NCBI GenBank assembly: GCA_027002405.1
Contig: JALWZT010000340.1
Coordinates: 1 to 33,817 of the forward strand
Origin: Anaerolineae bacterium
Lineage (GTDB): Bacteria; Chloroflexota; Anaerolineae; J102
Length of the DNA: 33,817 bases
Direction of reading: 5' to 3'
Under the pieces are notes generated by a model. The model was given only the letters and a program-made list of their open reading frames with translations. It was not told the DNA's origin and searched no databases. The number at the start of each line of letters is the position of its first letter. The first letter of the stretch is position 1. Shown here piece after piece: positions 209 through 33,281 of the stretch. A program made the translations under genes and the position numbers.

Positions 209-216
209 ATCGGCCT

Positions 217-224: not shown

Positions 225-279
225 TCCGAGCCTTATGGAAAGGGAAATATTCCCCGGGCCTCTCTGGCCCTCATCATAC

Positions 280-308: not shown

Positions 309-315
309 CGGGGTT

Positions 316-1569: not shown

Positions 1570-1571
1570 TT

Positions 1572-2405: not shown

Positions 2406-2406
2406 G

Positions 2407-3195: not shown

Positions 3196-3199
3196 GGCC

Positions 3200-6387: not shown

Positions 6388-6424
6388 CAAGCCTTCCTCC
6401 GAAAGGTGTTTGCAACAGTATCAT

Positions 6425-6452
6425 ATCATAGCGTGAAAAGAAGAAAATGCAA
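6425..6452 (-). promoter_or_regulatory. Internal ftsZ promoter
   Basis: On the minus strand TTGCAT (6447-6452) and TATGAT (6425-6430) are 16 bases apart in the ftsA-ftsZ gap. The predicted start is near 6418, about 30 bases before the ftsZ ATG, leaving room for the GGAGGA ribosome site. A dedicated ftsZ promoter next to ftsA is common in bacteria. Confidence 0.55.
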
Positions 6453-6460
6453 AATTGGTC

Positions 6461-7684: not shown

Positions 7685-7688
7685 GCCT

Positions 7689-8549: not shown

Positions 8550-8552
8550 GGT

Positions 8553-8718
8553 GAGGGTTAGGATCGGGATTAGGATTAGGATCAGGATTAGGATTGAGGG
8601 GTATCGGAACAGGTGACACGAGCCACGGCTCGCCGATACCGAGGAAAATGGGAACGCAGAGATGCACGCAGATGCGACGCAGATTTCTACTGATTACTGA
8701 TCACTGATTACTGATCAC
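8553..8718. repeat. Repeat island between ddl and ftsQ
   Basis: GGATTA/GGATCA hexamer array (8555-8598), a CGCCGATACCGAGGAAAATG block (8628-8658) with ACGCAGATGC repeats, then a minus-orientation heptamer array (8689-8718) that runs into the ddl reading frame and supplies its stop codon. Confidence 0.85.
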
Positions 8719-10570: not shown

Positions 10571-11553
10571 GCCCGTTCCGTACGTGGGTCTGGCAGAGGG
10601 GGGTCCTGAGGCCACTGGCCCACCAGGAGGATTTCCGGTTCCAGCAGGATGTGAAAATGACGCCACACCTCGCGACGGGCCAGGATCATGAGATCAAGGA
10701 CGTCGTGGGCCCGGGCCTGGCCTCGGTTGATGATGAAATTGGCGTGTTTTTGGCTAATGCAGGCCTGGCCAATGCAATGGCCTTTGAGCCCAACCGCGTC
10801 GATGAGCCGACCTGCGTAGTCGCCCGGCGGGTTTTTGAAAATAGAGCCCGCGCTGCGGTCGATGGGTTGGGTGCGCCGCCGGTAGGTCATGGCCTGACGG
10901 GCCGCTTCCTGAGCCCGCCCCGCCCTATCGGGCTCCAGGCGCAGGGTCACATCCAGCAAAACGGGGGGCGTGCCGGGCCGCGCGGCCAGGGGTTTGAGCC
11001 GACTGAAGCGATAGGCAAAGGCCATGGCTTCCGGGCCCCAGCGCGTGATCCGGCCCTGGTGCCACACCCGCGCGCTGACGAAAATCGAAGCGATATCGTG
11101 ACCATGGGCACCCGCGTTGCCGACCACAGCCCCCCCGACCGTGCCCGGCACACTCACGGCCCAACTGAGCCCGGCCAGGCCCCGCTGCAGGGCCTCTCGT
11201 GCCAGGCCCGCCAGGGGCACGCCTCCCGCGGCGGTCACGGTCACTGGTCCCCGGTAGGGAGGATCCGGCCAGTGCACCTCGCGGCAGCGGTGTTGGATCA
11301 CCACCCCGCGGACTCCCGCATCGCTGATGAGCAGGTTGGTCCCCCCGGCCAGGAGCCAGTAAGGCACCCGGGCCTGATGCAGCGCGTCCAACGCGGCTTG
11401 CAGGTGGTCAAGCTGCGTCAGGGTGACCCAAAAATCGGCCGGGCCCCCGATGCGGAAGCTGGTGTAAGGGGCCAGGGGCACCCGTTGGCGCAGGCCCCCT
11501 TGGCTCAAGGCATCCAGTCGGGCCAGGAGCTGGGTGGGAGGTGGGGAGGGCAT
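10540..11553 (-). CDS. murB: UDP-N-acetylenolpyruvoylglucosamine reductase
   Basis: FAD- and NADPH-dependent MurB makes UDP-MurNAc, the second committed step of peptidoglycan synthesis. The 337-residue protein has the FAD-binding segments [14 protein letters not shown] (about 28-41), [18 protein letters not shown] and [19 protein letters not shown], then the C-terminal substrate domain with [10 protein letters not shown] containing the catalytic Ser, and ends the family-conserved part at LEPEILLVG. The last about 20 residues exceed the usual end, and the final ten (PRTAVRRYG and flanking residue) plus TGA are translated from the inverted CCGATACCGAGG repeat module. The GGATTA array ends 3 bases before the ATG, so no ribosome site is present. 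The gene stands alone between two islands. Confidence 0.96.
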
Positions 11554-11771
11554 TGGGGATTAGGATTAGGATTAGGATTAGGATTAGGATTGGCAGGCCG
11601 AGGGTAGGCGCGAGTGGGAGTGGGAGTGGGAGTAATCAGTAATCAGTTATCAGTTATCAGTTATCAGTTATCAGTTGACTCTGCGTTCTCTGCGTTCTCT
11701 GCGGTAAGTAGCCTTTCCGTAGGGGGGTCAGGGATCAGTCATCCAGTGTTCAGTGTTCAGTAGCATCAAGG

Positions 11772-11898
11772 CTAGAAACAGCGCCCCTGCGGGACCAGCC
11801 GGAATTATCCGGCGCCGTTCTATAGCCCGGCGACTTCATCGCCGGGCGGGCGTGGTGGACGCTACTTCGCTCGGCTAAACCACGCCAAATGTCTGCTA
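11772..11898 (+). repeat. REP-like multi-hairpin block, copy 2
   Basis: Same series of hairpins as at 10057-10175, with small changes in the first two (GGGACCAGCC, GGAATTATCC) and the perfect CCCGGCGA/TCGCCGGG hairpin conserved. It ends with AAATGTCTGCTATG. Confidence 0.85.
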
Positions 11899-12223
11899 TG
11901 AAATAGAACCTGTTATGAACTTATCGCCAATTTCACGCGATTTTGTGGATGGCGGGCGTTTCAATTCGCCACGGATGATGCTGATGCGACGGATCGACAC
12001 GGATTTTTTGGGAAAAAACATGGTATCTGTTTGAAAAATCCGCGAAAATCTGCTTTATCCGCGTTATCCGCGGCCAATTCCAACCTCCGATGCGGCGATC
12101 CTGAGCTTTGAGGGAAGCAAAGTGCATAACAGTCCAACGGCGGGCTCGCCCGCGCCGATACCGAGGAAAATGGGAACGCAGATTTGCGCTGATGCTCCGC
12201 AACGCAGATTTTCGCAGATATTC

Positions 12224-12335
12224 GTCATGCTGAGCGACCGGAGGGAGCGAAGCATCTAGCGAGCGAAGCGAGCGCCATGCCGTGGTCTTTTGCGCTTCGC
12301 TAGATTCCTCGGTCGCTGCGCTCCCTCGGAATGAC
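12224..12335. repeat. 112-base imperfect inverted repeat (MITE-like)
   Basis: The ends are GTCATGCTGAGCGACCGGAG on the left and, read on the other strand, GTCATTCCGAGGGAGCGCAG on the right; the arms continue to CTAGCG(A) near the centre. The arms are similar but shuffled, so the element can fold into a long imperfect hairpin. No coding capacity. Confidence 0.7.
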
Positions 12336-12467
12336 GTCGCGGGGCTCTACTGATTACTGATAACTGATCACTGATTACTCTATTTACAAAGCAGTCGCCA
12401 CGAGCGGCGGCTCACTGATACCGAGGGAAACGCCTCGCGGCCAAGTTGGCGCGGGAAGCCGAGTTCG

Positions 12468-12713
12468 TGATGCGTAATACGTAATGCGTAATGAGCTCAC
12501 GTTTCACGTTTCACGCATCACGCCCGTTGTCGTCTCGCTCAACGTCGGCCTGGCGATCCTTCCGCAGCCGACGATCATGCTATTTTCAAAGCAGTCATCA
12601 CGAACGGCAGTTCGCCGATACGAATGAAAACGCCTCGCGGCCAGGGCGGCGTGACTCGTATTCCGTATTGCGTATTGCGTAACGACTGGACGGAATACGG
12701 AATACGCAATACG
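12468..12713. repeat. Two long palindromes in the murB-murC island
   Basis: 12468-12524 has arms of the GCGTAATACG / TTTCACGCATCACGC type; 12657-12713 has arms GTATTCCGTATTGCGTATTGCG and its complement around a GTAACGACTGGACGG centre. The second is the exact inverse of copies at 10251-10308 and 19831-19889. Each lies between a CCTCGCGGCCA linker and a CGCTCAACGT or CGCCCAACGT linker. Confidence 0.8.
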
Positions 12714-12777
12714 AACCTTTGCCGACTCGCCCAACGTCGGCCTGGCGATTCCTCAGCAACCAGCGATCATTCTATTT

Positions 12778-14175
12778 TCATAGCAGGATCTCGGCCAGGC
12801 GGGTGGCCGAGCCCGCACTGAGGATGATGACCAGGCTGTTGGGGCCCAGGCGGGGCATCAGGTATTGGGCAATGGCCTCCAGGGAAGGGATGGCTCGGGC
12901 ATCTTCATGATGGGTGGCCGCGGCCACCAGCTCCGGGGTGATGTGAGGGTCCTGAGGTTCCCGGGCCGCGTAGATTTCGGTGATGATGACATGATCCGCC
13001 GCGCTGAACGCACCATGGAATTGATCCAAAAACGTACGGGTACGGCTGTAGGTGTGGGGCTGGTAGATGGCCCAGATCTCTCGCTGGGGATAGGCCGTGC
13101 GCGCGGCCTGCAGGGTGTGGCGCACTTCGGTGGGATGGTGGGCGTAGTCATCGATGATTATCGCGCCCCGGACTTCCCCCTTCCATTCAAAACGGCGGGC
13201 CGCGCCCTGATAGGTCATCAGATGAGGGATGGCTTCCTCCAGCGAAAGCCCGGCTTCGCGCACGGCCAGCAACGCGGCCATGCTGTTGAGGATGTTGTGC
13301 AAACCGTGCAGCCGCAATTGCACGGGGTAATCATGCCCCTGGATGTGGAGGCGGTAGCGGGCTCCCTGGGGCCCCATCTCGATATCCTCGGCCCGGGCAT
13401 AGGCGCCATGAAAAGCGCCGTAGCTGAGGCCATGCTCCAGGCGTTGTTCCCGCTCCCAGCGGCGCAGGGTGGGGTCGTCCCGGTAGTAGAGCACACGGCC
13501 CTGAGCGCGGACCTGTTGGAGCAAGCGCAGAAACGCGTCCTCATAAGCCTCGGGCGTGGGGAAAAGGTCGGGGTGATCCCAATCCAGGTTGGTCAGGACC
13601 AGACGCCAGGGCTTGAGTCCCAGGAACATGTAATCGTACTCATCCGCTTCGATGACGAACAGGGGTTCCCGGCCCGCTTCGCTGAAGCCCAGGCCCGGGA
13701 TTTCGCTGCCGATGATGTAGCCCGGGCGACGCCCTGCCTGGGTGAGGATGTGCGCAATGAGCGCGGTGGTGGTGGTTTTGCCATGGGTCCCTGCCACGGC
13801 CAGGACCTCGCGAGCCTCCAGCAGGGGCCCCAGCAGGTCTTTGCGCTTGACCACGGGCAGGCCCCAGGCCTGGGCCTGTTGCACCTCCGGGTTGGAGGGG
13901 GGAACGGCCGAGGAGATCAGGACCAGATCGGGCCGTGAAGGGGGATCGGGGCTAAGGAGATGCTCGGGCCGATGCCCCTGGAAAATCCGGGCGCCCAGGG
14001 CCTCCAGGGCCTGGGTGCGGGTGTTGCGCTCGCGATCGCTGCCGCTGATTTGAAATCCCATCTGCGCCAGGACCCGGGCGATGGGGGCCAGGCCCGTGCC
14101 GCCCGCTCCCACCAGATGGATGCGATGCTGGCGACGTTGGTCAGGAAGGAGGGTGAAGAGGCTCTGCCAGGGCAT
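12778..14175 (-). CDS. murC: UDP-N-acetylmuramate-L-alanine ligase
   Basis: ATP-dependent cytosolic ligase that adds L-Ala to UDP-MurNAc, the first amino acid of the stem peptide. The 465-residue protein shows the UDP-binding N-terminus (HLVGAGGTGLAPIARVL, about 19-35), the P-loop AGTHGKTTTTALIAH near residue 125, the DEYDYMFL segment, the YAHHPTEV motif and HTYSRT in the C-terminal domain. Length is normal. The TGA overlaps the boundary of a repeat module (CTGCTATGAAAATAG, compare CTGCTTTGTAAATAG elsewhere). The ATG is 3 bases after the stop of the upstream membrane-protein gene, without Shine-Dalgarno, so it is probably translationally coupled. Confidence 0.97.
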   Translation of the reverse strand: MPWQSLFTLLPDQRRQHRIHLVGAGGTGLAPIARVLAQMGFQISGSDRERNTRTQALEALGARIFQGHRPEHLLSPDPPSRPDLVLISSAVPPSNPEVQQAQAWGLPVVKRKDLLGPLLEAREVLAVAGTHGKTTTTALIAHILTQAGRRPGYIIGSEIPGLGFSEAGREPLFVIEADEYDYMFLGLKPWRLVLTNLDWDHPDLFPTPEAYEDAFLRLLQQVRAQGRVLYYRDDPTLRRWEREQRLEHGLSYGAFHGAYARAEDIEMGPQGARYRLHIQGHDYPVQLRLHGLHNILNSMAALLAVREAGLSLEEAIPHLMTYQGAARRFEWKGEVRGAIIIDDYAHHPTEVRHTLQAARTAYPQREIWAIYQPHTYSRTRTFLDQFHGAFSAADHVIITEIYAAREPQDPHITPELVAAATHHEDARAIPSLEAIAQYLMPRLGPNSLVIILSAGSATRLAEILL

Positions 14176-14178
14176 GGG

Positions 14179-14727
14179 CTATTTGCGCACACGAAAGAGG
14201 AGCATGATGGTCATCAAAATGGCCCAAAACGCAGGCGGGACCACATAAGGGGGCAGATAATTGGCAATGGTTTCGCCCAGAGGAGTCAGGGGAAGATAAA
14301 GGAGATGGAAATCGGTGATGGGGTAATTGTAGTTGTCCTGAAAAAACCAGAGGGTTCCTGCGATGAGGTACCCGTTGATCATGCCCACCAGCAGGGTGAA
14401 GAGAAATCCCTTGAAGCCCGAAGCCGGGCTGCCTTTGAAGCTGAAGGTCTGGCCAGCGTAACTGGCAAAGATGATGCCGATAAAGGTCAACGAAAAGATG
14501 GAGGCCAGGAGATGTTCCTCCTGCCGCGGCGTGGGGGGCGCGCCCAGGAGTTTGATGAAAATTTTATCCAGAATGGCCGGAAGTTTGGGCACGCCAATGT
14601 AGGTGATGAGGAACAGGGCCGCGAAGATCAGGGTCATGGTCCCCAGCTCGTTGGGGTATTTACGCACGAACGCGATGAAAACAAAGATGATAAAAACAGT
14701 GAGCCAGAGGTATTCGAAGGGGCCCAT
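14179..14727 (-). CDS. Integral membrane protein, CvpA-like, unknown function
   Basis: The 182-residue product is highly hydrophobic with about five predicted membrane segments (roughly 5-25, 30-48, 74-92, 106-128, 160-178). The segment GFKGFLFTLLVGMINGYLIAGTLWFF resembles the second half of CvpA-family proteins, but the similarity is weak. An AAGGA ribosome site lies about 8 bases before the ATG. It sits between a second CvpA-like gene and murC with gaps of 12 and 3 bases, so it belongs to the same transcript. A role in envelope synthesis or division is inferred only from the location. The functional assignment is uncertain; the gene call itself is firm. Confidence 0.75.
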   Translation of the reverse strand: MGPFEYLWLTVFIIFVFIAFVRKYPNELGTMTLIFAALFLITYIGVPKLPAILDKIFIKLLGAPPTPRQEEHLLASIFSLTFIGIIFASYAGQTFSFKGSPASGFKGFLFTLLVGMINGYLIAGTLWFFQDNYNYPITDFHLLYLPLTPLGETIANYLPPYVVPPAFWAILMTIMLLFRVRK

Positions 14728-14739
14728 GACGCGATGTCC

Positions 14740-15429
14740 TTAACTTTTTTTCTTGGCGGGATTCAGGCTGAAAAGAATGATGACAATGACGGCCAACAAC
14801 AGGATGGGGATGGTCCACTGACCAAAGATATCGTTGAGGAATCCAAAAAGCCAGGCCAGAAAGTGGAACGCGGTTTGGAGCAGGTATTTGAAGAGGGCAA
14901 AGAGCTGTTTGAGGATCCCGGCCAGGCTGAGGCTTTCCAGTTGAAAGGGCGGGGTTTTGGGCAAGATGGGGATGAAGATCGCGGAAAGCAACAGGCCGTT
15001 GAAGGCCCCTGCCACCAGGCCCAGGCCAGGGGAGGCACGTTTGGCAAACTTGGCAACCACATACCCCACGAGGATCAGAAAGATCATGGCCAGGAAGAGG
15101 GCGATGTCGGTCCGGTCTCTGGGGATGAGGCGAATGCCACCGATTTCCTGGAAGATGCGGTTGAGGGTGTCGGCATTGAAGTTGCCGGTGAGGATCGCTT
15201 TCAGCCCTCCGTGAAGGAGGAACTGCACAGAAAGCCAGATGCCATTGACCGCTTGCAGCAGGTATTTGCCCAAAAGGTCTTTTTGGCCCACCAGGAAACC
15301 GACAATGATGAAACCAAACTTCACCAGCTCGGACCATAGCCCGCGCTGATAGCCCTGCCAGGCAAACAGGGCGATGATGATCCAAAAGAGGATGTTGGCC
15401 TGAAGCTCGGCCAGGGTGGCGGGGTCCAT
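14740..15429 (-). CDS. CvpA-like integral membrane protein
   Basis: The 229-residue product has several membrane segments. The N-terminal part (FAWQGYQRGLWSELVKFGF then IIVGFLVG) matches the CvpA pattern of a G-x-x-RG-x-W/F-x-E motif after the first helix, followed by an amphipathic middle region with RDRTDIALFLAMIFLILVGYVVAKF. The CvpA family includes the colicin V production protein and uncharacterised envelope proteins. A C-terminal extension with two further hydrophobic segments ends in the basic KKKS. It starts the murC segment after a repeat island; the leader is pyrimidine-rich without Shine-Dalgarno. Partner of the neighbouring gene, possibly as a two-component membrane complex (inference). 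Confidence 0.75.
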   Translation of the reverse strand: MDPATLAELQANILFWIIIALFAWQGYQRGLWSELVKFGFIIVGFLVGQKDLLGKYLLQAVNGIWLSVQFLLHGGLKAILTGNFNADTLNRIFQEIGGIRLIPRDRTDIALFLAMIFLILVGYVVAKFAKRASPGLGLVAGAFNGLLLSAIFIPILPKTPPFQLESLSLAGILKQLFALFKYLLQTAFHFLAWLFGFLNDIFGQWTIPILLLAVIVIILFSLNPAKKKS

Positions 15430-15679
15430 GAGGCAAAAAGGGGAGAGACGGGAGAACTAACTAAAAGTCATCATGAGCAATGGCTCACCGCATAACGACA
15501 AAAATGGAACGCAGGTTTGCAAGTTTGCAAGTCGCAAGTGGCAGGTGGGGAGAACGCAGATGCACGCAGATGCAACGCAGATTCCCACTGATTACTGATC
15601 ACTGATAACTGATTACTCCTGCTCGCGCCTAACCTCGGCATGACAATCCTCAATCCTAATCCTAATCCTGATCCTGATC
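15430..15679. repeat. Repeat island between murG and the CvpA-like genes
   Basis: Contains a GGCTCACCGCATAACGAC variant block (15480-15510), a GCAGGTTTGCAAGTTTGCAA stretch (15511-15552, again at 33342 and 33661), ACGCAGATGC repeats, a minus-orientation heptamer array (15587-15618), a CTCGCGCCTAACCTCGGC linker and a CCTAATCC array (15645-15680) reaching the murG stop. Confidence 0.85.
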
Positions 15680-16810
15680 CTATTTTATGGCCAGGTCGAG
15701 CAGGGCCTGGGCGATGGTTTGCGCCGCGTGGGGGCGAGCCAGGGCCGCGCTGGCCCGACTCATGGCCGTCAATTGGGCAGGATGCCGGATAAGTTCCTGA
15801 ATGGTGGGGAGAAGCTGGGTGGGCAGCGCGTCATTGTCGATCATCACGGCCGCGCCGCGGTCGGCCAGGTAGCGGGCGTTGTGGCGTTGATGCCCCCCCG
15901 AGATAGGCAAAGGGACCAGGATGGCCGGGAGGCCCAGGGCAGGGAATTCGCCCAGGGTGGAGGCTCCCGCACGGGCGACCACCAGGTCGGCCGCGTGCAG
16001 CGCGGGGATCATGGCTTCGTGCAGGTAGGGGAAGAGCCGGTAATGACTCTGCTGAGCGGGGGAAAGGTTCTGAGCCCGAGCTTGGGCCGCGGGGTGGTCC
16101 AAATGACCGCTGATGTGGATGACCTGCATGGTCTCCAGCAAGATGGGGAGGATGGCGGCCAGGGCCTGGTTGATGGCCCGGGCCCCGCGCGAGCCGCCAA
16201 AGACCAGCAGGGTGGGGCGTTGGGGGTCCAGGTGGAAGGCCTGGCGGGCCTGGGCTTTGCTCATGGTGCGCTGCTGGAGTTCGGGCCGGACCGGATAACC
16301 CGCGTCGATGATGCGGGCCCGAAGCCCCTGGAAGTGTTGGGCTGCCTCGGGGAAGGTGACCGCGATGGCGGTCGCGTGCCGGGCCAGGCGCTGCACCCCC
16401 AGGCCCGGGGTGATATCGGGCAGGTAGATGAGCACCGGCACCCCATGCCGGGCCGCGGCCCAGACCACCGGGCCGCATACATAGCCCCCTGTGACAAACA
16501 AAGCATGAGGCCGCCATCGTTGGATGAGGCGATGAGCCTGGAACCCGCCCAGGCCCATACGCAGCGCGTTTCGGGCCAGCTTCAGGGGGTTGTAAATGCG
16601 GATCTGCCCGGCCGAGATGGGGGCAAAGGGGATGCCCGCGCGGGGCACCAATTGGGCTTCGACGCCATCGGCCGTGCCCGCGTAGAGCATTTCCAGCGAG
16701 CGTTGCGAGGAGGCCGGATGCTCCGACCAAAGGATTTTAAGAGCGGCTGCGACGGTGAGCACGGGATACACGTGCCCGCCGGTTCCTCCGCCGGAAAAGA
16801 GCAGGCGCAT
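15680..16810 (-). CDS. murG: UDP-GlcNAc:undecaprenyl-PP-MurNAc-pentapeptide GlcNAc transferase
   Basis: Membrane-associated GT28 transferase that adds GlcNAc to lipid I to give lipid II. The 376-residue protein has the N-terminal glycine loop FSGGGTGGHVYPVL (about 5-18), VTGGYVCGPVVWAA in the acceptor domain, GGSRGARAINQAL in the linker to the donor domain, and VARAGASTLGEFPALGLPAILVP plus GGHQRHNARYL for UDP-GlcNAc. The usual EQN box is replaced by YLPDITPGLGVQRLAR. The start overlaps the ftsW end by 74 bases, which suggests coupling. The TAG stop lies within AAATAGGATCAGG, a module boundary of the GGATTA array. Confidence 0.95.
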   Translation of the reverse strand: MRLLFSGGGTGGHVYPVLTVAAALKILWSEHPASSQRSLEMLYAGTADGVEAQLVPRAGIPFAPISAGQIRIYNPLKLARNALRMGLGGFQAHRLIQRWRPHALFVTGGYVCGPVVWAAARHGVPVLIYLPDITPGLGVQRLARHATAIAVTFPEAAQHFQGLRARIIDAGYPVRPELQQRTMSKAQARQAFHLDPQRPTLLVFGGSRGARAINQALAAILPILLETMQVIHISGHLDHPAAQARAQNLSPAQQSHYRLFPYLHEAMIPALHAADLVVARAGASTLGEFPALGLPAILVPLPISGGHQRHNARYLADRGAAVMIDNDALPTQLLPTIQELIRHPAQLTAMSRASAALARPHAAQTIAQALLDLAIK

Positions 16811-17921
16811 GAAGGGAAAAGCTACCTTGACCGTTTTTGGAAATGTTGAGCAGGATTCCCAACCCGGCCATGATGAGGAGGGTATTGGACCCGCCGTAGG
16901 AGAAAAAGGGAAGGGGCATGCCGGTGTTGGGGATCACCACGGTGATGACGGCGATGTTGATAAAGGCCTGCAAGGTCACCCAGGTGGTGATGCCAAAGGC
17001 CAGGAGCCGACCAAAATCATCTTTGGCCTGCAAGGCAATGTGCACGCCCCGATATGCCAGGGCCAGAAAGAGGGCGATGACCACCAGCGCGCCCAACAGG
17101 CCAAGCTCTTCGCCGACCACCGCGAAGATGCTGTCGGAATGGATCAGGGGCAAGTGGCCCAGCTTGTACTGGCCCTGGGCCAGCCCTTTGCCAAAAAGTC
17201 CCCCCGATTTCAGCGCAAAATACCCGGTGCGGGTTTGCAAGTCGGGGCTGTTCCAGGGGGCGACAAAGGAGGCAAGAAATTGGTTGATCCGCTTGATGGC
17301 ATAATCTTGCCGGGTCACGGCCAGACCAAAGGCCGCGGCCAGGGAAAGGAGCAGGATCGCGATCTGGATGAGATCCGCGCCCGCCACAATGAACATGGCA
17401 ATGGCTGTCAGCGCGATCAGGGCCGAGGTGGAAATATCGGGCTCGAGAATGATCAAAGAAAGGAAAAAGCCCATGATCATGCCAAAGGGGATGAGGCCCA
17501 TGCTGAGATCGCTGATCTTCTTGCCTTTGGAAGCCAGCCACGCGGCAATATAAATGATAATGGCCAATTTTGCCAATTCCGAAGGCTGGATGGACCCGCC
17601 CCGGAGATGGCGCCGGGCTCCCCCTTCCCCCTCTTCGCCGATCAACAGGACCAGGGCCAGCAGGATCATGGTTATCATCATGGCGGGAATGGCTAAATTT
17701 TGCCACAGATGATAATCTACCTGCATGATGAGGAACATGCCGGTTAGTCCTAGGGCCAGCCACATTCCATGTTTGATGATGACGCGATAGGGGTGAGCGG
17801 GATTGAGCGCGTAAGACGCGCTGAATTGCATGACCGCGCCATAGCCGATCAAGATGAAGATGATCACCATCAGGAGGTAATCGATGTGGGTGGGGGCAGA
17901 GGTTTTAGATGAGCGGGACAC
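16737..17921 (-). CDS. ftsW: Lipid II polymerase FtsW (SEDS family)
   Basis: SEDS-family glycosyltransferase that polymerises lipid II at the septum together with FtsI. The 394-residue protein has about ten membrane helices, the LEPDISTSALIALTAI segment (family LEPDfGT-like motif) near residue 158, GHLPLIHSDSIFAVVGEELGLLG (family motif) near 260 and PLPFFSYGGSNTLLIMAGLGILLNIS at the C-terminus. The basic tail (RRRNRRARVSRAHRRSRS) is read from bases that also encode the MurG N-terminus. The start is GTG at 17921: the next in-frame ATG would remove part of the first helix. No Shine-Dalgarno is seen because the heptamer array occupies the upstream bases. FtsW rather than RodA is chosen from its place in the dcw cluster. 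Confidence 0.92.
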   Translation of the reverse strand: MSRSSKTSAPTHIDYLLMVIIFILIGYGAVMQFSASYALNPAHPYRVIIKHGMWLALGLTGMFLIMQVDYHLWQNLAIPAMMITMILLALVLLIGEEGEGGARRHLRGGSIQPSELAKLAIIIYIAAWLASKGKKISDLSMGLIPFGMIMGFFLSLIILEPDISTSALIALTAIAMFIVAGADLIQIAILLLSLAAAFGLAVTRQDYAIKRINQFLASFVAPWNSPDLQTRTGYFALKSGGLFGKGLAQGQYKLGHLPLIHSDSIFAVVGEELGLLGALVVIALFLALAYRGVHIALQAKDDFGRLLAFGITTWVTLQAFINIAVITVVIPNTGMPLPFFSYGGSNTLLIMAGLGILLNISKNGQGSFSLHAPALFRRRNRRARVSRAHRRSRS

Positions 17922-17925
17922 GATG

Positions 17926-17959
17926 TTCAGTAATCAGTCATCAGTGATCAGTCATCAGT
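17926..17959 (+). repeat. Heptamer array between murD and ftsW
   Basis: TCAGTAA, TCAGTCA, TCAGTGA, TCAGTCA, TCAGT with a 7-base period. It fills the whole murD-ftsW gap, supplies the murD stop (on the minus strand) and comes within 5 bases of the ftsW GTG. Confidence 0.9.
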
Positions 17960-19426
17960 TTGCAAAGCCAGGACCAACTCGCGGAAGTGGCGGCCGCGAT
18001 GGGCAAAGTCGGGATACGCATCAAAGCTGGTGCCGCCGGGGGAAAGGAGCACCACCTCCCCCGGTTGAGCCACATGGGCCGCCGCGGCCACGGCCCGAGG
18101 GAGGTCTTCGACAAGCTGAAGTTGTTCCAGCCGAGAATGGGAGGGCGCGTGGGCCAGGGCCTGTTGGATGATAGGACGGGCTTCGCCGAACGCAATGACC
18201 ACCCGCACCCGGCGATGGACTTCTTGGGCCCACAGGTCCCAGGGCAGGTGCTTGTCCCGGCCCCCGGCCAGCAGGATGATCGGTTCCCGAAAGCTGCGCA
18301 GCGCGGCCAGGGCCCGTTCCGGCGCGGTGGCGATGCTGTCGTTGATCCAGAGAACCCCCTGAATGCGGGCGACTTCTTCCAGCCGGTGTTCCACCCCCCG
18401 GAAGGTGCGCACGGCTTCGGCCACACCCTGAGGGGTCGCGCCCGCGGCCGTGGCAATGAGCGCGGCCGCCAGGACATTGGCCAGGTTGTGGCGCCCCCGC
18501 AGGCGGATGTCCTGGACCGGAAAAAGAGGTTGGATGTGGCCCTGCCATCGTAGCATGACCCGGTCATCTTGAATCCAGGTGCCATCCTGGTCAGGTGGGG
18601 GAGGATCAAAGCCAAAGGTGAGGACCTGGCCGGGGATGGGGAAGGTTCGTTCGGGTTGGCCGGGCCCGGACGGGATGTGCACCCGCTTTTGGGCAGCCCA
18701 TGAGGCCAGGGTGGGGTCCTCGCGAGGAAGGATGGCCCAATCCTGAGAGCTCTGATAAGCCAGGATGTTGGCTTTAGCCGAGGCGTAATGGGCCATGGAA
18801 GGGTGACGATCCAGATGATTGGGGGTGAGGTTGAGGATGGCCGCGACATGGGGGCTGAGGCCCTGGGAGGCGTTCCAGGGGGGAGGAGCCCCGGGCCAGG
18901 CCGCGGTGGGCCCCCAGTAGAGAAGCTGAAAGCTGGAAAGTTCCATCACGACCCGGTCTTGGGGGCGGACAGCCGAGAGTTGCGGGAGCAAAGGATGGCC
19001 GATATTGCCCCCCAACCACACAGGCAGGCCCGAGGCTTCCAGCATGCGTGCCACCAGGGTGGTGGTGGTGGTTTTGCCGCTGCTGCCGGTGATCCCAACC
19101 AGGGGGGCCGGGCAGGCCTGGGCAAAGAGGCGGGGCTCGGTGGTAATGGGCAGGCCACGAGCCCGGGCCGCTTGCAGAAGGGGAATGTCTTGGGGCACCC
19201 CCGGGCTCACTACCAGGGCGTCGATGCCCTGGAGCAGAGCTTCGGTTTGGGGGCCGATGTGAATGTGAACGCCCAAACCTTCCAGCTCATCCCGGATGGG
19301 AGGGGAGGGTGCACGCAGGTCGCTGGCATGGACGCGCGCGCCCTGGCGGGCCAGCCAGAGGGCGGCCGCACGGCCTTCCCGGGCCAGGCCGATGATGAGC
19401 ACGGTTTGGGAGGAGAATGATGCCAT
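17948..19426 (-). CDS. murD: UDP-N-acetylmuramoyl-L-alanine-D-glutamate ligase
   Basis: ATP-dependent cytosolic ligase that adds D-Glu to UDP-MurNAc-L-Ala. The 492-residue protein has the N-terminal Rossmann segment (VLIIGLAREGRAAALWL, about 9-25), the P-loop GSSGKTTTTTLVARML near residue 112, the family motif LNLTPNHLDRH, the WINDSIATAPERALAAL segment and GGRDKHLPW of the C-terminal domain. It is somewhat longer than E. coli MurD (438), mostly from insertions in the central domain. The final TDD and the TGA stop come from the heptamer repeat. The leader is C-rich (CCTTTGCCCCC) without a ribosome site. Confidence 0.95.
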   Translation of the reverse strand: MASFSSQTVLIIGLAREGRAAALWLARQGARVHASDLRAPSPPIRDELEGLGVHIHIGPQTEALLQGIDALVVSPGVPQDIPLLQAARARGLPITTEPRLFAQACPAPLVGITGSSGKTTTTTLVARMLEASGLPVWLGGNIGHPLLPQLSAVRPQDRVVMELSSFQLLYWGPTAAWPGAPPPWNASQGLSPHVAAILNLTPNHLDRHPSMAHYASAKANILAYQSSQDWAILPREDPTLASWAAQKRVHIPSGPGQPERTFPIPGQVLTFGFDPPPPDQDGTWIQDDRVMLRWQGHIQPLFPVQDIRLRGRHNLANVLAAALIATAAGATPQGVAEAVRTFRGVEHRLEEVARIQGVLWINDSIATAPERALAALRSFREPIILLAGGRDKHLPWDLWAQEVHRRVRVVIAFGEARPIIQQALAHAPSHSRLEQLQLVEDLPRAVAAAAHVAQPGEVVLLSPGGTSFDAYPDFAHRGRHFRELVLALQTDD

Positions 19427-19992
19427 GGGGGCAAAGGCTGTTCCGTAAATAGGATCAGGATTAGGATTGAGGATTGTCAGGCCGAGGTTAGGCGCGAGTA
19501 GGAGTGGGAGTAATCAGTAATCAGTAATCAGTTATCAGTTGACTCTGCGTCCTCTGCGCTCTCTGCGGTAAGTAACCTTTCCGTAGGGGGGGCAGGAATC
19601 AGTCATCCAGTGTTCAGTGTTCAGTAGCGCCGAGGCTAGAAGGAGGTCCCCTGCGGGGCTAGCCGGAATTATCCGGCGCCGTTCTGTAGCCCGGCGACTT
19701 CATCGCCGGGCGGGCGTGGTGGACGCCACTTCGCTCGGCTAAACCACGCCAAATGTCTGCTATGTAAATAGGATTCGGATCAGGATTAGGATTGAGATCG
19801 TCAGGCCGACGTTGGGCGAGGCGGTAAAGGTTCGTATTGCGTATTCCGTATTCCGTCCAGTCGTTACGCAATACGCAATACGGAATACGAGTCACGCCGC
19901 CCTGGCCGCGAGGCGTTTTCCTCGGGATCGGCGAGCCGCCGCTCGTGGCGACTGCGTTGCATCTACGCAAATCTGCGTTCCCATTTTCATTT
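19427..19992. repeat. Repeat island between mraY and murD
   Basis: No gene seen. GGATTA array with a GTCAGGCCGAGGTTAGGCGC linker (19445-19508), heptamer array (19511-19540), CTCTGCGTCCTCTGCG block (19541-19628), REP-like hairpins (19634-19762), one composite palindrome unit starting TGCTATGTAAATAGG (palindrome 19831-19889) and an inverted CCGATACCGAGG-type block ending in ATTTGCGTTCCCATTTTCAT next to the mraY TAG. The order is the same as in the first part of the ddl-murB island. Confidence 0.85.
19634..19762 (+). repeat. REP-like multi-hairpin block, copy 3
   Basis: Same hairpin series as at 10057-10175, with the CCCGGCGA/TCGCCGGG hairpin and the GGCGTGGT/ACCACGCC pair intact, ending AAATGTCTGCTATG. 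Confidence 0.85.
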
Positions 19993-20994
19993 CTAGATCA
20001 ACGCCAACGCAATGCCGATCATGCCGGAGAGGATGCCGATGATGAAAAAGCGTTGGGTCACGTGGTTTTCGGCCCAGCCGCTGAGCTCAAAGTGGTGATG
20101 CAGGGGGGCCATTTTGAAGGGACGGATGTCCCGACCCAGAAATCGGCGGCTGAGTTTGGCCGAGCTCACTTGCAGGATCACGGAAAGGGCTTCGGCCACA
20201 AAGGGCAGGCCAATGACAGCCAGCAGCAACCATTGCCCGGTCATCAGGGCCACGATGCCCAGGGTGGCACCCAGGGCCATGGACCCGGTATCGCCCATGA
20301 AAAGTTGGGCGGGGAAGGCGTTGAACCACAGGAACGCGAAGAGCGCGCCCACCGTGGTAAAGGCAAAGGCGGCCAGCCAGACCTGCCCCTGCAAGTAGGC
20401 GATGAGCCCGTAGGAGGCAAAGCTGACCGTAGCCAGGGAACCGGCCAGGCCATCCAGCCCGTCGGTGAGGTTCACCGCGTTGGCGGTCCCGACAATGATG
20501 AAAAGGGCGATGGGCAGCCACCAATAGCCGATATCGATGCGGGAAGGGACCGTGGGGATGGCGATGCTATGGATATCCAGGCGCCAGAACATGATACCGG
20601 CCAGGAACGCGGCCAAAAGGAGCTGGATGGGGAATTTGGACCGGGCCAGCAGGCCCTGGGCATCCCCCCGTTTGCGTAAGATGCCGGCCAGATCATCCAA
20701 AAAGCCCAGGCCACCAAAGGTGAGCATGGCAAAGACCGGCACCAGCACCGATTCGCCGATGAGGGTAAAGCCCAGGAGATTGGCCAGGTTCAGGCCCAGG
20801 TTGATAAGGACCACCGGCGCGATGAAGAGGATGCCGCCCATGGTGGGGGTGCCCGCTTTGGATTGATGGGATTGCGGGCCTTCCAGGCGGATGCGTTTGC
20901 CTAACTGGTAATGGCGAAGCAGGCGAATGAGGGGGGTCCCCCAGATCACGGCCAGGAAGAAGGCCAGGGTGGCGAGGGTGAGCGGGTAGGACAT
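19993..20994 (-). CDS. mraY: Phospho-N-acetylmuramoyl-pentapeptide transferase
   Basis: Polytopic membrane enzyme that links phospho-MurNAc-pentapeptide to undecaprenyl phosphate to make lipid I. The 333-residue protein has about ten membrane helices and the family motifs SKAGTPTMGGILF (about 46-58), FLDDLAG (Asp pair), NAVNLTDGLDGLAG, GDTGSMALGATLG and the C-terminal PLHHHFELSGW with the HHH cluster. The start is 3 bases after the murF stop, so it is translationally coupled. Its TAG is followed directly by repeat-module sequence. It ends the mraZ-to-mraY segment, which contains no repeat islands. Confidence 0.98.
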   Translation of the reverse strand: MSYPLTLATLAFFLAVIWGTPLIRLLRHYQLGKRIRLEGPQSHQSKAGTPTMGGILFIAPVVLINLGLNLANLLGFTLIGESVLVPVFAMLTFGGLGFLDDLAGILRKRGDAQGLLARSKFPIQLLLAAFLAGIMFWRLDIHSIAIPTVPSRIDIGYWWLPIALFIIVGTANAVNLTDGLDGLAGSLATVSFASYGLIAYLQGQVWLAAFAFTTVGALFAFLWFNAFPAQLFMGDTGSMALGATLGIVALMTGQWLLLAVIGLPFVAEALSVILQVSSAKLSRRFLGRDIRPFKMAPLHHHFELSGWAENHVTQRFFIIGILSGMIGIALALI

Positions 20995-27460: not shown

Positions 27461-27489
27461 AAAGGGCGCCACTTAATTCGGCGCCCTTT
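27461..27489. terminator. Bidirectional intrinsic terminator
   Basis: Ten-base stem AAAGGGCGCC / GGCGCCCTTT with the loop ACTTAATTC. On the plus strand it follows the proline dehydrogenase stop with only a short T run; on the minus strand it is followed by TTTTTTATTT, a proper U tract, so it terminates minus-strand transcripts best. Confidence 0.85.
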
Positions 27490-27750: not shown

Positions 27751-27793
27751 TGTGACATTTGTCACTGCCTGCGACGGCGGCTTTGATTATAAT
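27751..27793 (+). promoter_or_regulatory. CRP/FNR-type operator and -10 upstream of the anion permease
   Basis: Palindrome GTGAC-ATTT-GTCAC (27752-27765; with flanks TGTGACATTTGTCACT, close to the CRP pattern TGTGA-N6-TCACA), 22 bases, then TATAAT (27788-27793). With a start at about 27800 the palindrome centre is at -41.5, the class II activator position. The -35 hexamer (CTGCCT) is poor, as expected for an activated promoter. The same arrangement exists before the ATPase gene. Confidence 0.7.
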
Positions 27794-27808
27794 AAAAATA
27801 ACATCATG

Positions 27809-27995
27809 GTAACTATACACCTATACCCTTCCATAGCAAGGTGAAAACCACGAAGACACGAAGGCACCAAGGCACGAAGGAGAAAATAAAAGGTTCTCTT
27901 CGTGTCTTCGCCTCTCCCCCCGTGTGCGGGGGGAGCCGGAGGGGGGCCTTCGAGCCTTCGTGGCAAAGCGTTGGGTGGGATACCTGTATAGTTAC
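27809..27995. mobile_element. MITE-like element between a promoter and the permease gene
   Basis: The ends are an inverted repeat: GTAACTATACA followed by CCTATACCC on the left (27809-27828) and GGGATACCTGTATAGTTAC on the right (27977-27995). Eleven outer bases match perfectly and the rest imperfectly. Inside are CACGAAGACACGAAGG and its inverse and a CTCCCCCC-gtgtgc-GGGGGGAG hairpin (27914-27935). No transposase and no clear target duplication. It lengthens the permease 5' leader to about 275 bases. Confidence 0.5.
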
Positions 27996-28074
27996 GAAAT
28001 TTTTTCCGTGAACCCCTTATTTTTCTCTGTGTCCTCCGTATCTCCGTCTTGAAAAACCTTTTTACAATGGAGCC

Positions 28075-29166
28075 ATGGCTGCACTACGAAAAAAGTACGC
28101 TTTCATCGATTTTATCCTAAAAGAATGGTTGTTGGTTGCATCGGGCGTTGGTCTGGCACTGACCTCGCTGCTGACCACGCGCCTGCCGCGCTTTTCGGAG
28201 GATGAGCTGGGCGTACTCCTGATCCTTTTCGCCCTGTTTATGACGGTAAAAGGGCTGCAAGAAAGCGGTCTCATTGCCAATGTCGCCCGCAGGATCGAGC
28301 AAGGTCGGGCCATTCCCCTGAAGTTGGTACTGGGGACATTTTTCCTGGCGATGCTGATGACCAACGATGTGGCCCTGGTAGTCATGGTTCCTTTGACGTT
28401 ATCTCTGCAAATCAGGCGCAAGGACATTCTCGTAATCCTGGAAGCATTGGCCGCGAACGCCGGGTCTGCGTTGATGCCCTTCGGCAATCCGCAGAATTTG
28501 TATCTCTACTGGCACTATCGGGTGGGTCCCGTGGACTTCATATCTACCATTGCGCCCTTTTCATTGGCGTTCCTCGTGCTACTGGCTGGTGCCGCTTCGG
28601 TCACGAAGACGGAAAACAGCGCTGCCGCTGGGGCATCTCTGCCCGCCATCCACCGAATTGCCTGGGGGTTTGGCGTTCTTTTCCTCATCCTCATCCTCGC
28701 CATCCTGCATGTGCTGCCATTGTTTGTGGCGGTGTTGGTGATTCTGGCCGCGGCCGCGTTGGACAGGCGGGCTTTGCGGGTGGATTATGCGATTCTGGTC
28801 ACTTTCCTTCTTTTTTTCGGAATCACGGACAATTTGAGATATATCTTGACGGCTGAATTGCATCAAGCCGGGCATGTCTTTTTGTTGTCCGCCTTGATAA
28901 GCCAATTCATCAGCAATGTACCCGCGGCCCTCTTGTTCGCCGAATTCACCCCTCATTGGCAGGCGCTGCTGTGGGGCGTCAATGCCGGCGGCTTCGGGAG
29001 TCTCGTCGCGTCCCTGGCGAACCTGATCGCCTACAAGTTCTATCTGGCCGATGGCCAAACCAAAGCGCCTTTTGTCTTCACCATCAAGTTTATGGCAATG
29101 GGATTCATGGCGCTGGCGATCGCCATCCTGCTGTATGGCATGCGTTTTGGTCTTGGGGCAATATAA
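28075..29166 (+). CDS. Anion permease of the ArsB/NhaD/SLC13-like (ion transporter) superfamily
   Basis: The 363-residue product is a polytopic membrane protein with about ten helices. The two half-repeats carry the superfamily motifs: AANAGSALMPFGNPQNLYLY (about residues 125-145; compare the S-x-x-TP-x-GN-x-x-N hairpin of ArsB, CitM and SLC13) and QFISNVPAALLF (about 281-292) with NAGGFGSLVASLANLIAY, the second hairpin. The substrate (arsenite, dicarboxylate, sulfate or Na+/H+ exchange) cannot be told. It is shorter than most members (about 420-600) because the central loops are short. TACAAT just upstream (28063-28068) has no good -35. GGAG is only 2 bases before the ATG, so translation signals are weak. 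Its promoter geometry links it to the following ATPase gene. Confidence 0.8.
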   Translation: MAALRKKYAFIDFILKEWLLVASGVGLALTSLLTTRLPRFSEDELGVLLILFALFMTVKGLQESGLIANVARRIEQGRAIPLKLVLGTFFLAMLMTNDVALVVMVPLTLSLQIRRKDILVILEALAANAGSALMPFGNPQNLYLYWHYRVGPVDFISTIAPFSLAFLVLLAGAASVTKTENSAAAGASLPAIHRIAWGFGVLFLILILAILHVLPLFVAVLVILAAAALDRRALRVDYAILVTFLLFFGITDNLRYILTAELHQAGHVFLLSALISQFISNVPAALLFAEFTPHWQALLWGVNAGGFGSLVASLANLIAYKFYLADGQTKAPFVFTIKFMAMGFMALAIAILLYGMRFGLGAI

Positions 29167-29186
29167 GCAGCGGCTTTTCATCGGCC

Positions 29187-29228
29187 GTGACAAAAGTCAC
29201 TGCAACAAGGCCGAAGGAACGCGATAAT
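29187..29228 (+). promoter_or_regulatory. CRP/FNR-type operator and -10 upstream of the H+-ATPase gene
   Basis: Palindrome GTGAC-AAAA-GTCAC (29187-29200), then TGC and in total 22 bases, then GATAAT (29223-29228). The centre is at about -41.5 from the predicted start near 29235. Operator, spacing and -10 coincide with the promoter at 27751-27793, although the sequences between them differ. Confidence 0.7.
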
Positions 29229-29289: not shown

Positions 29290-31932
29290 ATGAAGAAAAC
29301 CGATGCATACCAAAACCAATCCATCGACGAAACCCTCAAAGAGCTGGGAACCGACCTGCAAAAGGGCCTCAGTTCGGAAGAAGCCCAAAAGCGCTTGCAG
29401 CAATACGGCCCCAACGCCATCGAGGAGAAAGAGGAGCCCCTGTGGCATCGCGTCTTTCGCCGCTTTTGGGGCCCGATCCCCTGGATGATCGAGATCGCGG
29501 CCATCCTCTCCGCCGCGGTCAAGAAGTGGGAGGATTTCGTCATCATTCTCATCATGCTGCTGGTCAACGCCGGTCTGGACTTCTATCAGGAAGGGCGGGC
29601 GTTGAATGCCCTCAAGACCCTGAAGCAGAAGCTGGCCCGGCAGGCCATTGTGCTGCGGGATGGCACATTCAAGCCCATTCCCGCCAGGGACCTGGTGCCG
29701 GGCGACATCATCAAACTCAAAATCGGTGACGTGGTCCCCGCGGATGTGCAACTGCTGCAAGGGGATTACCTGCTGGTGGACCAATCGGTGCTCACCGGCG
29801 AATCCCTGCCCGTGAGCAAGAAGCCGGGCGAGGTCGCCTACGCCAATACCATCGTCAAGCAGGGCGAGATGGTAGCCGTGGTGGTGAACACGGGCATGCA
29901 TACGAACTTCGCCCAGGTGGCGGCGCTGGTGGCCCAGGCTCAGGAAGAGGAGACCAGCCATTTCCAGAAGATGGTCATCCAGGTGGGCGACTATCTGATC
30001 CTGCTCACCATCGCCCTGGTCGTTATCATCGTCATGGTGGGCATCTTCCGCAACGAAAACATTCTGGAGCTCATTCGATTTGCCCTGGTGCTGACGGTGG
30101 CGGCCATACCCGTGGCCATGCCCGCGGTGCTGTCGGTGGTCATGGCCCTGGGCGCGGTGAACCTGGCCAGGAAACAAGCCATCGTCAGTCGCCTGGTAGC
30201 CATCGAGGAACTGGCGGGGGTGGATGTGTTGTGCAGCGACAAGACCGGCACCCTCACCCTCAATCAGCTCCAGGTGACCCAGCCCACGGTTTTTGATGGG
30301 CATGATGAGCAGGAGTTGCTGCTCATGGGCGTGCTGGCTTCCAGACCGGAGGACCAGGACCCCATCGACCTGGCCATTTACAACTACCTGAAAGTCCATT
30401 ATCCCGATCTGAACTGGCAGGACTACCAGCAAGTTCACTTCACCCCCTTTGATCCCATCCGCAAGCGCACCGAAGCCGACATCAAACATGGCGACGAGAC
30501 GTTTGTGGCCATCAAGGGCGCGCCCCAGGTGGTCATGGAGCTGGCCAAACTGCCCGAGGAGGAGGTGGCGAAGCTGAACAAGCTCGTGGACGACTTCGCC
30601 AGCAAGGGCTATCGCACCCTGGCCGTGGCCAAAAAGGTGGGGGATCGGGTCGATCTCATCGGCCTCATCCCCATGCTGGACCCGCCCCGGCCCGATTCGA
30701 AGGAGGTCATCGAAGACCTGCGTCGGCATCACGTGCAGGTGAAGATGATCACAGGGGACAATATCGCCATTGCCAGGGAAATCGGGCGCATGTTGGGGCT
30801 GACCGGTCCGGCCATGCGGGCGCGGGAACTGCGCACCAGCAAGGATGAGGGCATCGTCATGCTCACCTCCATCCTGGCCAAAGCCATCTACGAAAAGCTC
30901 TATCCCGACGCGGACAAAGAGTCCGTACAGAAATTTGCCGAGGAGGTGGTGCGGGAAGTCGAGGCCCAGTTCGACACCAGCGAACTGAGCAAAGGCCTGG
31001 TCAGCGCCCACGAATCGGACATCATCGCCAAGATCGAAGAGACCGAGATCTTCGCCGAAGTCGTGCCCGAGGACAAATTCCTCATCGTCAAGGCCCTGCA
31101 AAAAGCGAATCACATCGTGGCCATGACAGGGGACGGCGTCAACGACGCCCCGGCATTGAAAAAGGCGGATTGTGGCATCGCCGTGGCCAACGCCACGGAC
31201 GCGGCCCGCGCGGCCGCGGATATCATCCTCACCACCCCGGGCCTGGCCGTAATCAAAGACGCGGTCAAACTTTCCCGCAGCATTTTCGAACGCATGAAGA
31301 GCTATGCCACCTTCCGCGTGGCCGAAACCATCCGGGTCATCTTCTTCATGACCCTGAGCATCGTGGTCTTCAACTTCTACCCGGTGACCGCGCTGATGAT
31401 CATCATCCTGGCCTTGCTCAACGATATTCCCATCATGAGCATTGCCTACGACAATACGCGGGTAGACAAGAAGCCCGTACGTTGGAACATGCAGGAATTG
31501 CTGGCCGTCTCCACCACCCTGGGTTTGACCGGCGTCCTCTCATCCTTCCTGCTTTTCTTCATCATGGTGCAAATGCACCTGTCCCATCCTTTGATCCAAT
31601 CCCTGTTTTTCGCTAAACTGGTGATCGCCGGGCACGGCACCATCTACAACACCCGTATCGATGACTGGTTTTGGAAGAAGCCCTATCCTTCCTGGATTCT
31701 GTTCGGCGCCACCTTCAGCACCCGGGTGTTGGGCACACTGTTCGCGGTCTATGGCTGGTTCATGGAGCCCATCGGCTGGAAGCTGGCCCTGCTGATGTGG
31801 GCCTATGCGCTCATCTGGTTCGTATTCAACGACGTGGTGAAGATGCTGACCTACAAATGGCTGCGCACTCGCCGCGGCCGGGCCTATCTGGCCAGCAAGA
31901 ACCTGCGCGGCGCCCTGCGGCAGTTGGTTTGA
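29290..31932 (+). CDS. Plasma-membrane-type H+-transporting P-type ATPase (type IIIA)
   Basis: Proton-pumping P-type ATPase. The 880-residue protein has the actuator motif TGES (169-172), the phosphorylation site CSDKTGTLTLNQ with Asp317, the hinge TGDGVNDAP (from Thr613) and membrane helices at about 60-110, 230-285 and 640-840. In helix M6 the LLND motif places Asp712 where plant and fungal H+-ATPases have the proton-binding Asp (AHA2 Asp684). GIAVANATDAARAAADIILT is typical of type IIIA. It lacks the long C-terminal autoinhibitory domain of eukaryotic enzymes. ATG at 29290 has a GAGGAG ribosome site 9 bases upstream; the ATG at 29227 lies in the -10 element. The APC permease follows after 47 bases, probably in one operon. 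Confidence 0.9.
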   Translation: MKKTDAYQNQSIDETLKELGTDLQKGLSSEEAQKRLQQYGPNAIEEKEEPLWHRVFRRFWGPIPWMIEIAAILSAAVKKWEDFVIILIMLLVNAGLDFYQEGRALNALKTLKQKLARQAIVLRDGTFKPIPARDLVPGDIIKLKIGDVVPADVQLLQGDYLLVDQSVLTGESLPVSKKPGEVAYANTIVKQGEMVAVVVNTGMHTNFAQVAALVAQAQEEETSHFQKMVIQVGDYLILLTIALVVIIVMVGIFRNENILELIRFALVLTVAAIPVAMPAVLSVVMALGAVNLARKQAIVSRLVAIEELAGVDVLCSDKTGTLTLNQLQVTQPTVFDGHDEQELLLMGVLASRPEDQDPIDLAIYNYLKVHYPDLNWQDYQQVHFTPFDPIRKRTEADIKHGDETFVAIKGAPQVVMELAKLPEEEVAKLNKLVDDFASKGYRTLAVAKKVGDRVDLIGLIPMLDPPRPDSKEVIEDLRRHHVQVKMITGDNIAIAREIGRMLGLTGPAMRARELRTSKDEGIVMLTSILAKAIYEKLYPDADKESVQKFAEEVVREVEAQFDTSELSKGLVSAHESDIIAKIEETEIFAEVVPEDKFLIVKALQKANHIVAMTGDGVNDAPALKKADCGIAVANATDAARAAADIILTTPGLAVIKDAVKLSRSIFERMKSYATFRVAETIRVIFFMTLSIVVFNFYPVTALMIIILALLNDIPIMSIAYDNTRVDKKPVRWNMQELLAVSTTLGLTGVLSSFLLFFIMVQMHLSHPLIQSLFFAKLVIAGHGTIYNTRIDDWFWKKPYPSWILFGATFSTRVLGTLFAVYGWFMEPIGWKLALLMWAYALIWFVFNDVVKMLTYKWLRTRRGRAYLASKNLRGALRQLV

Positions 31933-31979
31933 ACTTTCACTCGTAGCCCTTGCTTCATTCTCACTCACAGGAAACCCCC

Positions 31980-33281
31980 ATGACCACCCAAACACAAGTC
32001 ACCACCGAACAACTTTCTCTGGCCGAGCTCATCGCCCTGGGCGTGGGGGGCATGGTCGGGGGCGGCATCTTCTCGGTGCTGGGGCTTTCGGCCCTGGTTT
32101 CGGGCCATGCCGCGCCTCTGGCCTTTGCCTTCGGCGGGGTCATCGCCCTGCTCACAGGATACAGTTACACCCGCCTGGGGCTGCACTTCCGCTCGGATGG
32201 CGGCAGCTTTACCTATCTGGAGCATGCATTCCGGCAGCGCAATATCGCGGGCATCGGCGGTTGGCTGCTGCTGGTGGGGTACATCGGCACCATGGGCCTG
32301 TACGCCTACACCTTTGGCGCGTATGGCGCGGCCATGCTGGGCGACAAGCTGAACATACCCCCGATCCAGCACGCGCTCGCGTCCCTGGTGCTGCTCATCT
32401 TTTTGGGCATCAATCTGTACGGGGTCAAGGCGTCGGGGACGACCGAACTGATTTTGGTGGGGGTGAAGGTGGCCATTCTGGCGGTCTTTGCCGTGGCGGG
32501 ATTGATGACCCTCCAGTCGAATCGCCTGTTGCCCCTGTTCAACAAGGGCGTGGTGGGGTTGGTCATGGGCGCGGCTTTGATTTTCGTGGCCTACGAGGGC
32601 TTCGAGCTCATCCCCAACGCGGTGAACGAGATGAAAGACCCCCAGCGCAATCTGAGTCGGGGCATCTTCATCTCGATTTTGATCACCACGGCCATCTACA
32701 TTGGCGTGGCCCTGGTGGCGGTGGGCAACCTCACGCCCGAGGAGATCAACAAATACAAGGAATACGCCCTGGCCGTGGCAGCCAGGCCCGCGCTGGGCGA
32801 ATTCGGCTTCCTGCTCATCGGCCTGGGCGCGCTGCTTTCCACCTCCTCGGCCATCAACGCCACCCTGTTCGGCACGGCCCGCCTGGGCATGGTTATGGCC
32901 CAGGAAGAGGAACTGCCCAAAGCCTTCAGTTACACCGCTCGCACCAAACCCGTGCCCTGGGTGAGCCTGGTGGTCATCTCCCTGGTCACCCTGGTATTCG
33001 TCAACATCGCCAATCTAACCATCATTTCCTCCTTCGCCAGCTCCACCTTCCTGCTCATCTTCATCGCCATCAACCTCTCGGCCATCCGGCTGCGCCGCAC
33101 CATCGGGGCCAATGTCTGGGCGCCGGGCCTGGGGCTGGTGTTGGCCGCGGGGTCGTGGGCCGTGCTCATGGGCTATCTGTGGCAGCATTCCCCCGAGAGC
33201 CTGTATCAGATCGCCTTCTTTTACATCGTTGTCGTGGGCGCGGAGTTGCTGTTCAGCCAGCGGGCGTTGATCCGGCGATAG
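31980..33281 (+). CDS. APC-family amino-acid permease
   Basis: The 433-residue product is a polytopic protein with 11-12 membrane helices. The N-terminal part (LAELIALGVGGMVGGGIFSVLGLSA, about 12-37) contains the glycine-rich unwound helix of APC transporters, followed by RLGLHFRSDGGSFTYLEHAF (conserved loop with G-G-S-F-x-Y), FVAYEGFELIPNAVNEMKDP (helix 6 and the EMK/P motif) and STSSAINATLFGTARL (helix 8). Substrate unknown; amino acids or polyamines are likely. As an H+-coupled symporter it could use the gradient from the ATPase upstream (inference). The ATG at 31980 follows an AGGAAA ribosome site; the longer in-frame start at 31950 is not supported. Repeats begin shortly after the stop. 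Confidence 0.88.
   Translation: MTTQTQVTTEQLSLAELIALGVGGMVGGGIFSVLGLSALVSGHAAPLAFAFGGVIALLTGYSYTRLGLHFRSDGGSFTYLEHAFRQRNIAGIGGWLLLVGYIGTMGLYAYTFGAYGAAMLGDKLNIPPIQHALASLVLLIFLGINLYGVKASGTTELILVGVKVAILAVFAVAGLMTLQSNRLLPLFNKGVVGLVMGAALIFVAYEGFELIPNAVNEMKDPQRNLSRGIFISILITTAIYIGVALVAVGNLTPEEINKYKEYALAVAARPALGEFGFLLIGLGALLSTSSAINATLFGTARLGMVMAQEEELPKAFSYTARTKPVPWVSLVVISLVTLVFVNIANLTIISSFASSTFLLIFIAINLSAIRLRRTIGANVWAPGLGLVLAAGSWAVLMGYLWQHSPESLYQIAFFYIVVVGAELLFSQRALIRR

Follow-up and report, generated by a model that had tools for sequence, protein, structure and literature searches.

At class II promoters of Escherichia coli, a CRP or FNR dimer is centred at position -41.5. In Pseudomonas aeruginosa, a cation P-type ATPase (PA1429) and universal stress proteins have been connected with Anr-type regulation; Anr is an Fe-S protein of the FNR type that recognises TTGAT half-sites. 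HcpR is an NO-responsive member of the CRP/FNR family with the consensus wTGTGAnnnnnnTCACAw (PMC545781, PMC1274295). The promoters described here lie in a contig of 33,817 nt from an Anaerolineae bacterium (the whole of this stretch is termed the window), which belongs to a genome of 4.3 Mb in 363 contigs. They share with the E. coli systems the operator core GTGA-N6-TCAC, a weak -35 region, a good -10 region and an operator centred at a predicted -41.5, and the candidate regulator, encoded on contig C46 of the same genome, has the R-E-x-x-x-R recognition helix. Unlike CRP and FNR, however, the C46 protein lacks both the cAMP-clamp arginine and the FNR cysteines; further, the inner C and G of the palindrome are fixed here and the targets differ. 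The operator core is also common to HcpR, both proteins lack Fe-S cysteines, and the composite motif (palindrome plus spaced -10) has an HcpR-like gene content near it elsewhere in the class. Within the genus, in contrast, the targets are universal stress protein (usp) genes, an H+-ATPase, a ClC channel and a permease, and the two systems are likened by the operator core alone; no hcp target was found among the sites examined. With respect to Anr, the C46 protein differs in having no cysteine and in being predicted to read GTGAC.

The features of the two promoters in the window, and of the genes they precede, are as follows.

27752-27765, plus strand: operator GTGACATTTGTCAC on the permease side, an exact match and one of the genome's three intergenic copies, with its centre at a predicted -41.5
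27766-27768, plus strand: TGC following the permease-side operator
27788-27793, plus strand: -10 hexamer TATAAT on the permease side, predicted +1 at 27800
27809-27995, no strand assigned: MITE-like element of 187 bp that separates the promoter from the permease gene; terminal inverted repeats GTAACTATACA/TGTATAGTTAC
28075-29166, plus strand: gene for a CitMHS/ion-transporter-like permease of 363 aa (PF03600, 5.3e-23)
29187-29200, plus strand: operator GTGACAAAAGTCAC on the H+-ATPase side, an exact match, invariant across four genomes of the genus
29201-29203, plus strand: TGC following the H+-ATPase-side operator, conserved in four genomes
29223-29228, plus strand: -10 hexamer GATAAT on the H+-ATPase side, predicted +1 at 29235
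29290-31932, plus strand: gene for a plasma-membrane H+-efflux P-type ATPase (TIGR01647, above cut-off)
31950-33281, plus strand: gene for an APC-type amino acid permease (PF13520), just 3′ of the ATPase gene

The palindrome, the TGC, the 22-base gap and the TATAAT or GATAAT hexamer reported in the first-pass annotation were all present to the base at both promoters. The claimed centre at about -41.5 was likewise obtained in both cases, relative to predicted starts that were set at seven bases past the -10 hexamer and from which the palindrome centres were counted. The window contains two exact palindromes, while 0.013 were expected from a first-order Markov model of the window; the composite motif did not appear in any of 300 trials of this model. 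The pattern GTGACN4GTCACKGC gave three matches (both strands counted), as compared with 0.00 in shuffles. Across 13 sites of the genus, the four central bases of the palindrome were free, while the GC that follows it was invariant (13 of 13), being preceded by T or G. This GC may extend the half-site or, alternatively, represent what remains of a -35 contact (CTG versus TTG at a 17-bp spacer). The -35 hexamers of all genus sites were poor (1-3 of six positions matching at 17 bp), as expected of activator-dependent promoters. The promoters therefore combine a fixed spacing to the -10 region, a weak -35 region and a centre at -41.5 from the predicted start, as class II promoters do.

The H+-ATPase promoter is the secure one of the two. 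An alignment of the upstream regions from four genomes showed the ten fixed bases of the palindrome, two inner As and the TGC to be invariant and the -10 hexamer to be nearly so, while the spacer between operator and hexamer varied. Since the first ATG of the ATPase open reading frame (29227) overlaps the -10 hexamer, the start codon is likely to be that at 29290, giving a leader of 55 nt. An AGAGGA sequence lies 10 bases upstream of 29290, and the ortholog in G007 starts at the aligned ATGAAGAAAACC and has no ATG equivalent to that at 29227. The APC-type permease gene is probably part of the same operon; the ATPase-APC gene order is also found in genomes G003 and G007.

The evidence for the permease promoter is weaker. 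A sequence search of the PDB yielded no closer identity for the permease. The MITE-like element begins nine bases past the predicted start and its end lies 79 bases from the permease ATG. It has 45 matching places in the genome, with the termini present in several copies, and it folds strongly as an RNA hairpin (z-score -7.7); no clear target-site duplication was seen in the copies looked at. No Rfam family matched in the window, indicating that the long permease leader contains no known RNA element. Upstream of this promoter, at 27461-27489, a perfect 10-bp inverted repeat (AAAGGGCGCC/GGCGCCCTTT) lies just 3′ of the proline dehydrogenase gene and is probably a terminator. The presence of the repetitive, strongly folding element raises an alternative to which we assign somewhat less than an even chance, namely that the ATPase promoter is functional while the permease-side copy has lost control of the permease through the intervening repeat. 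In agreement with this, neither of the two close permease orthologs (85-87% identical; loci L099 and L100) was found to have the permease-side site upstream. However, the permease side retains an undamaged operator, the TGC, the spacing and a perfect TATAAT, and transcripts can read through MITE-like elements.

The first-pass annotation had proposed a search of the genome for the motif at the same spacing. The genome contains 14 exact palindromes, as compared with two for the reversed (backwards) pattern. Eleven of them lie within open reading frames; their centres, for the most part GC-rich, fit Val-Thr codons, and codon usage (e.g. GTG ACC NNG GTC AC) is their probable origin. The remaining three fall between genes, two of them being those of the window, while the third is on contig C46, at 1496-1509. 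A -10 hexamer at 22 bases was found at these three and at no other of the 14, so that the genome holds exactly three exact composites, all intergenic. No composite with one mismatch was detected in the genome scan, and those with two mismatches were near the control level (six versus five). The concern that the palindrome might be frequent outside promoters thus touches only the coding matches, since every intergenic copy shows the promoter geometry. A separate sequence, CTGACTAAAGTCAC, occurs in eight copies within ∼1.2 kb on contig C141 of this genome (locus L199), apparently as a repeat unrelated to promoters.

Five CRP/FNR-type proteins with a helix-turn-helix scoring above cut-off are encoded in the genome. 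The homologue that had been sought was found next to the third intergenic palindrome:

Contig C46, 1522-2271, minus strand: CRP/FNR-family gene, the candidate regulator
Contig C46, 535-1479, minus strand: usp gene beside the CRP/FNR gene

The palindrome occupies the 42-bp gap between these two genes and is followed, in the direction of usp, by exactly 22 bases and a GATAAT. The C46 protein contains a cNMP-binding domain (PF00027, 1.3e-17) and a Crp-type helix-turn-helix (PF13545, 2.3e-17), both above cut-off. Its recognition helix, TAREVVSR, is of the CRP type (REVVSR); the form GTAREVV[S/T]R is kept in five orthologs, while that of G034 reads AREVVTR. Rodionov et al. 2005 associated Arg180 and Glu181 with the G and A bases of TGTGA half-sites (PMC1274295). 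By this rule, the R180, E181 and R185 pattern of C46 matches a GTGA half-site (PMC1274295), so that the helix predicts the half-sites actually seen in the operator. The 237-residue protein has no cysteines and hence no candidates for an N-terminal Fe-S cluster, indicating that it is not an Fe-S FNR protein. In an alignment with the Mycobacterium tuberculosis CRP, the cAMP pocket reads FDIPPVFDNKPHV, in which the positions that we take to be the pocket glutamate and the phosphate-clamp arginine are changed to aspartate and histidine, respectively; both replacements are kept among the orthologs. Since the clamp arginine is replaced, canonical sensing of cAMP, like that through an Fe-S cluster, appears unlikely for the C46 protein. 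We tentatively put forward, as a possibility that falls somewhat short of probable, that it represents an undescribed Anaerolineae subgroup of the CRP/FNR family, marked by the change of the clamp arginine to histidine, which would sense a signal other than cAMP and switch on proton-pump, anion-transport and universal stress genes. Candidate signals might be, for example, low energy, NO or oxygen sensed through haem, or acid.

Close orthologs of the C46 protein (E up to 1e-35) were present in six of the 298 genomes of the class: the present one, G001, G003 and G007, which belong to the same genus, and G034 and G052, from other families. Within the genus, eight exact composites occur in the four genomes that encode an ortholog and none in the five that lack it (4/4 versus 0/5; Fisher, 1/126, uncorrected for relatedness). 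As these four genomes may be closely related, the co-occurrence is supportive rather than a formal proof. In G001, G003 and G007 the ortholog locus again includes an exact palindrome, each time ahead of usp; G003 has a second site at this locus, which precedes a divergent ClC chloride channel gene. The H+-ATPase promoter is kept in all four genomes that encode the ortholog, and the other copies lie before usp genes, a ClC channel gene and a SpoIIAA-like gene. In G034, a usp-ATPase gene pair that shares a contig with the CRP ortholog, ∼5 kb away from it, has ahead of it a site with one mismatch and the 22-base spacing. A second usp gene of G034 follows an exact site spaced at 21 bases. Positions 1-20000 of this contig (L186, G034:C164) bring together the CRP ortholog, usp, H+-ATPase, APC permease, second usp and FtsH-like genes within 20 kb. 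Weaker related sites (GTGACAAAAGTCATTG) were observed at L193, L196 and L204 (G001, G006 and G005, respectively), with a usp gene downstream in G001 and G006; since no C46 ortholog was detected in G005 and G006, another CRP may use a similar operator there.

Across the class, the exact composite gave 21 matches in 16 of the 298 genomes, as compared with one match for the reversed-pattern control. When the spacing of a composite with TATAAT was left free between 14 and 32 bases, 24 of 35 matches fell at 22 or 23 bases and 30 at 21 to 24. Beyond the genus, in other families of the class (L206-L218), the genes that follow or adjoin the composite include those for a protoglobin, a flavodiiron-type protein, a DUF438-hemerythrin protein, a cytochrome c and, in divergent arrangement, a multicopper oxidase and a COX1-like protein; in G148 the site adjoins a CRP gene. 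This is a gene set of the low-oxygen or nitric-oxide type, like those of HcpR regulons, and suggests that the C46 regulator may descend from, or resemble, an oxygen/NO-type regulator. The literature searched contained neither a regulon of this type in the phylum nor an HcpR regulon in Chloroflexi.

The composite also occurs outside the genus in genomes without a close C46 ortholog, indicating that other CRPs can read it and that related regulators must share its specificity. The sites of the present genome could accordingly be bound by a different CRP/FNR protein, or by several; the protein of contig C145 (helix SRESVSR), for instance, also carries the R-E-x-x-x-R pattern. We consider this unlikely. 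G001 has exact sites and no C145 ortholog, while G002 has a C145 ortholog and no exact site; moreover, C145 and its orthologs have no exact palindrome beside them, whereas every C46 ortholog of the genus has one. C145 is therefore disfavoured as the regulator, its distribution fitting the sites less well and its gene lacking flanking sites. A little less likely still is that the sites are operators for a repressor, the dimer covering the -35 region and blocking RNA polymerase. The palindrome does overlap the -35 region and CRP/FNR proteins can repress; indeed, both activating and repressing sites have been predicted for HcpR (PMC545781). However, the -35 hexamers are poor at every site, and the gap to the -10 region is held at 22-23 bases class-wide, as for an activator, while the position of a repressor site is usually free to shift. 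That the palindromes precede genes by mere chance is very improbable and was rejected on the basis of the shuffles and the conservation across genomes: most genomic copies do lie in coding sequence, probably through codon usage, yet the window was expected to hold hardly any, and the composite is nearly absent from the controls.

From the sequence, the spacing, the genome-wide specificity, the conservation, the adjacency to the regulator gene and the co-occurrence with it, all of which were observed directly, we infer binding, activation rather than repression, and the start sites. The preferred reading, class II activation, is that a CRP/FNR-family dimer, likely the C46 protein, would sit on GTGACN4GTCAC with its centre at -41.5, overlapping the weak -35 region and contacting RNA polymerase; in this way it would rescue promoters whose -10 is good but which lack a -35. 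This dimer would drive the H+-ATPase/APC-permease operon, with its short leader, and the usp gene beside its own gene; in this genome it would also drive a transcript that starts nine bases before the MITE-like repeat, upstream of the permease. As judged from the sequences compared, we hold it probable that the C46 protein activates in this way one small regulon of universal stress proteins, the proton pump and some anion transport. The class II architecture and shared regulon advanced in the first-pass annotation, and its view that the twin promoters reflect conserved architecture rather than a recent duplication, were supported by searches at three scales (genome, genus and class) and by the matching regulator beside the third copy. 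Its description of one regulon for anion transport and proton export holds in part. The proton pump is a conserved member; the commonest members, however, are usp genes and the regulator's own locus, and the permease site was detected in no other genome and has a repeat element between it and the gene. Of the two promoters of the window, related bacteria share only that of the proton pump.

The proposed regulon is new and its presumed mechanism is a textbook one. Genes from a class of bacteria that is largely uncultured can be assigned a candidate regulator and operator together with the exact architecture of their promoters, and GTGACN4GTCACKGC followed by a -10 at 22 bases provides a search motif for further members of the regulon with almost no background. 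The assignment ties a P-type H+-ATPase to universal stress proteins, the same pairing as is found around Anr in Pseudomonas.
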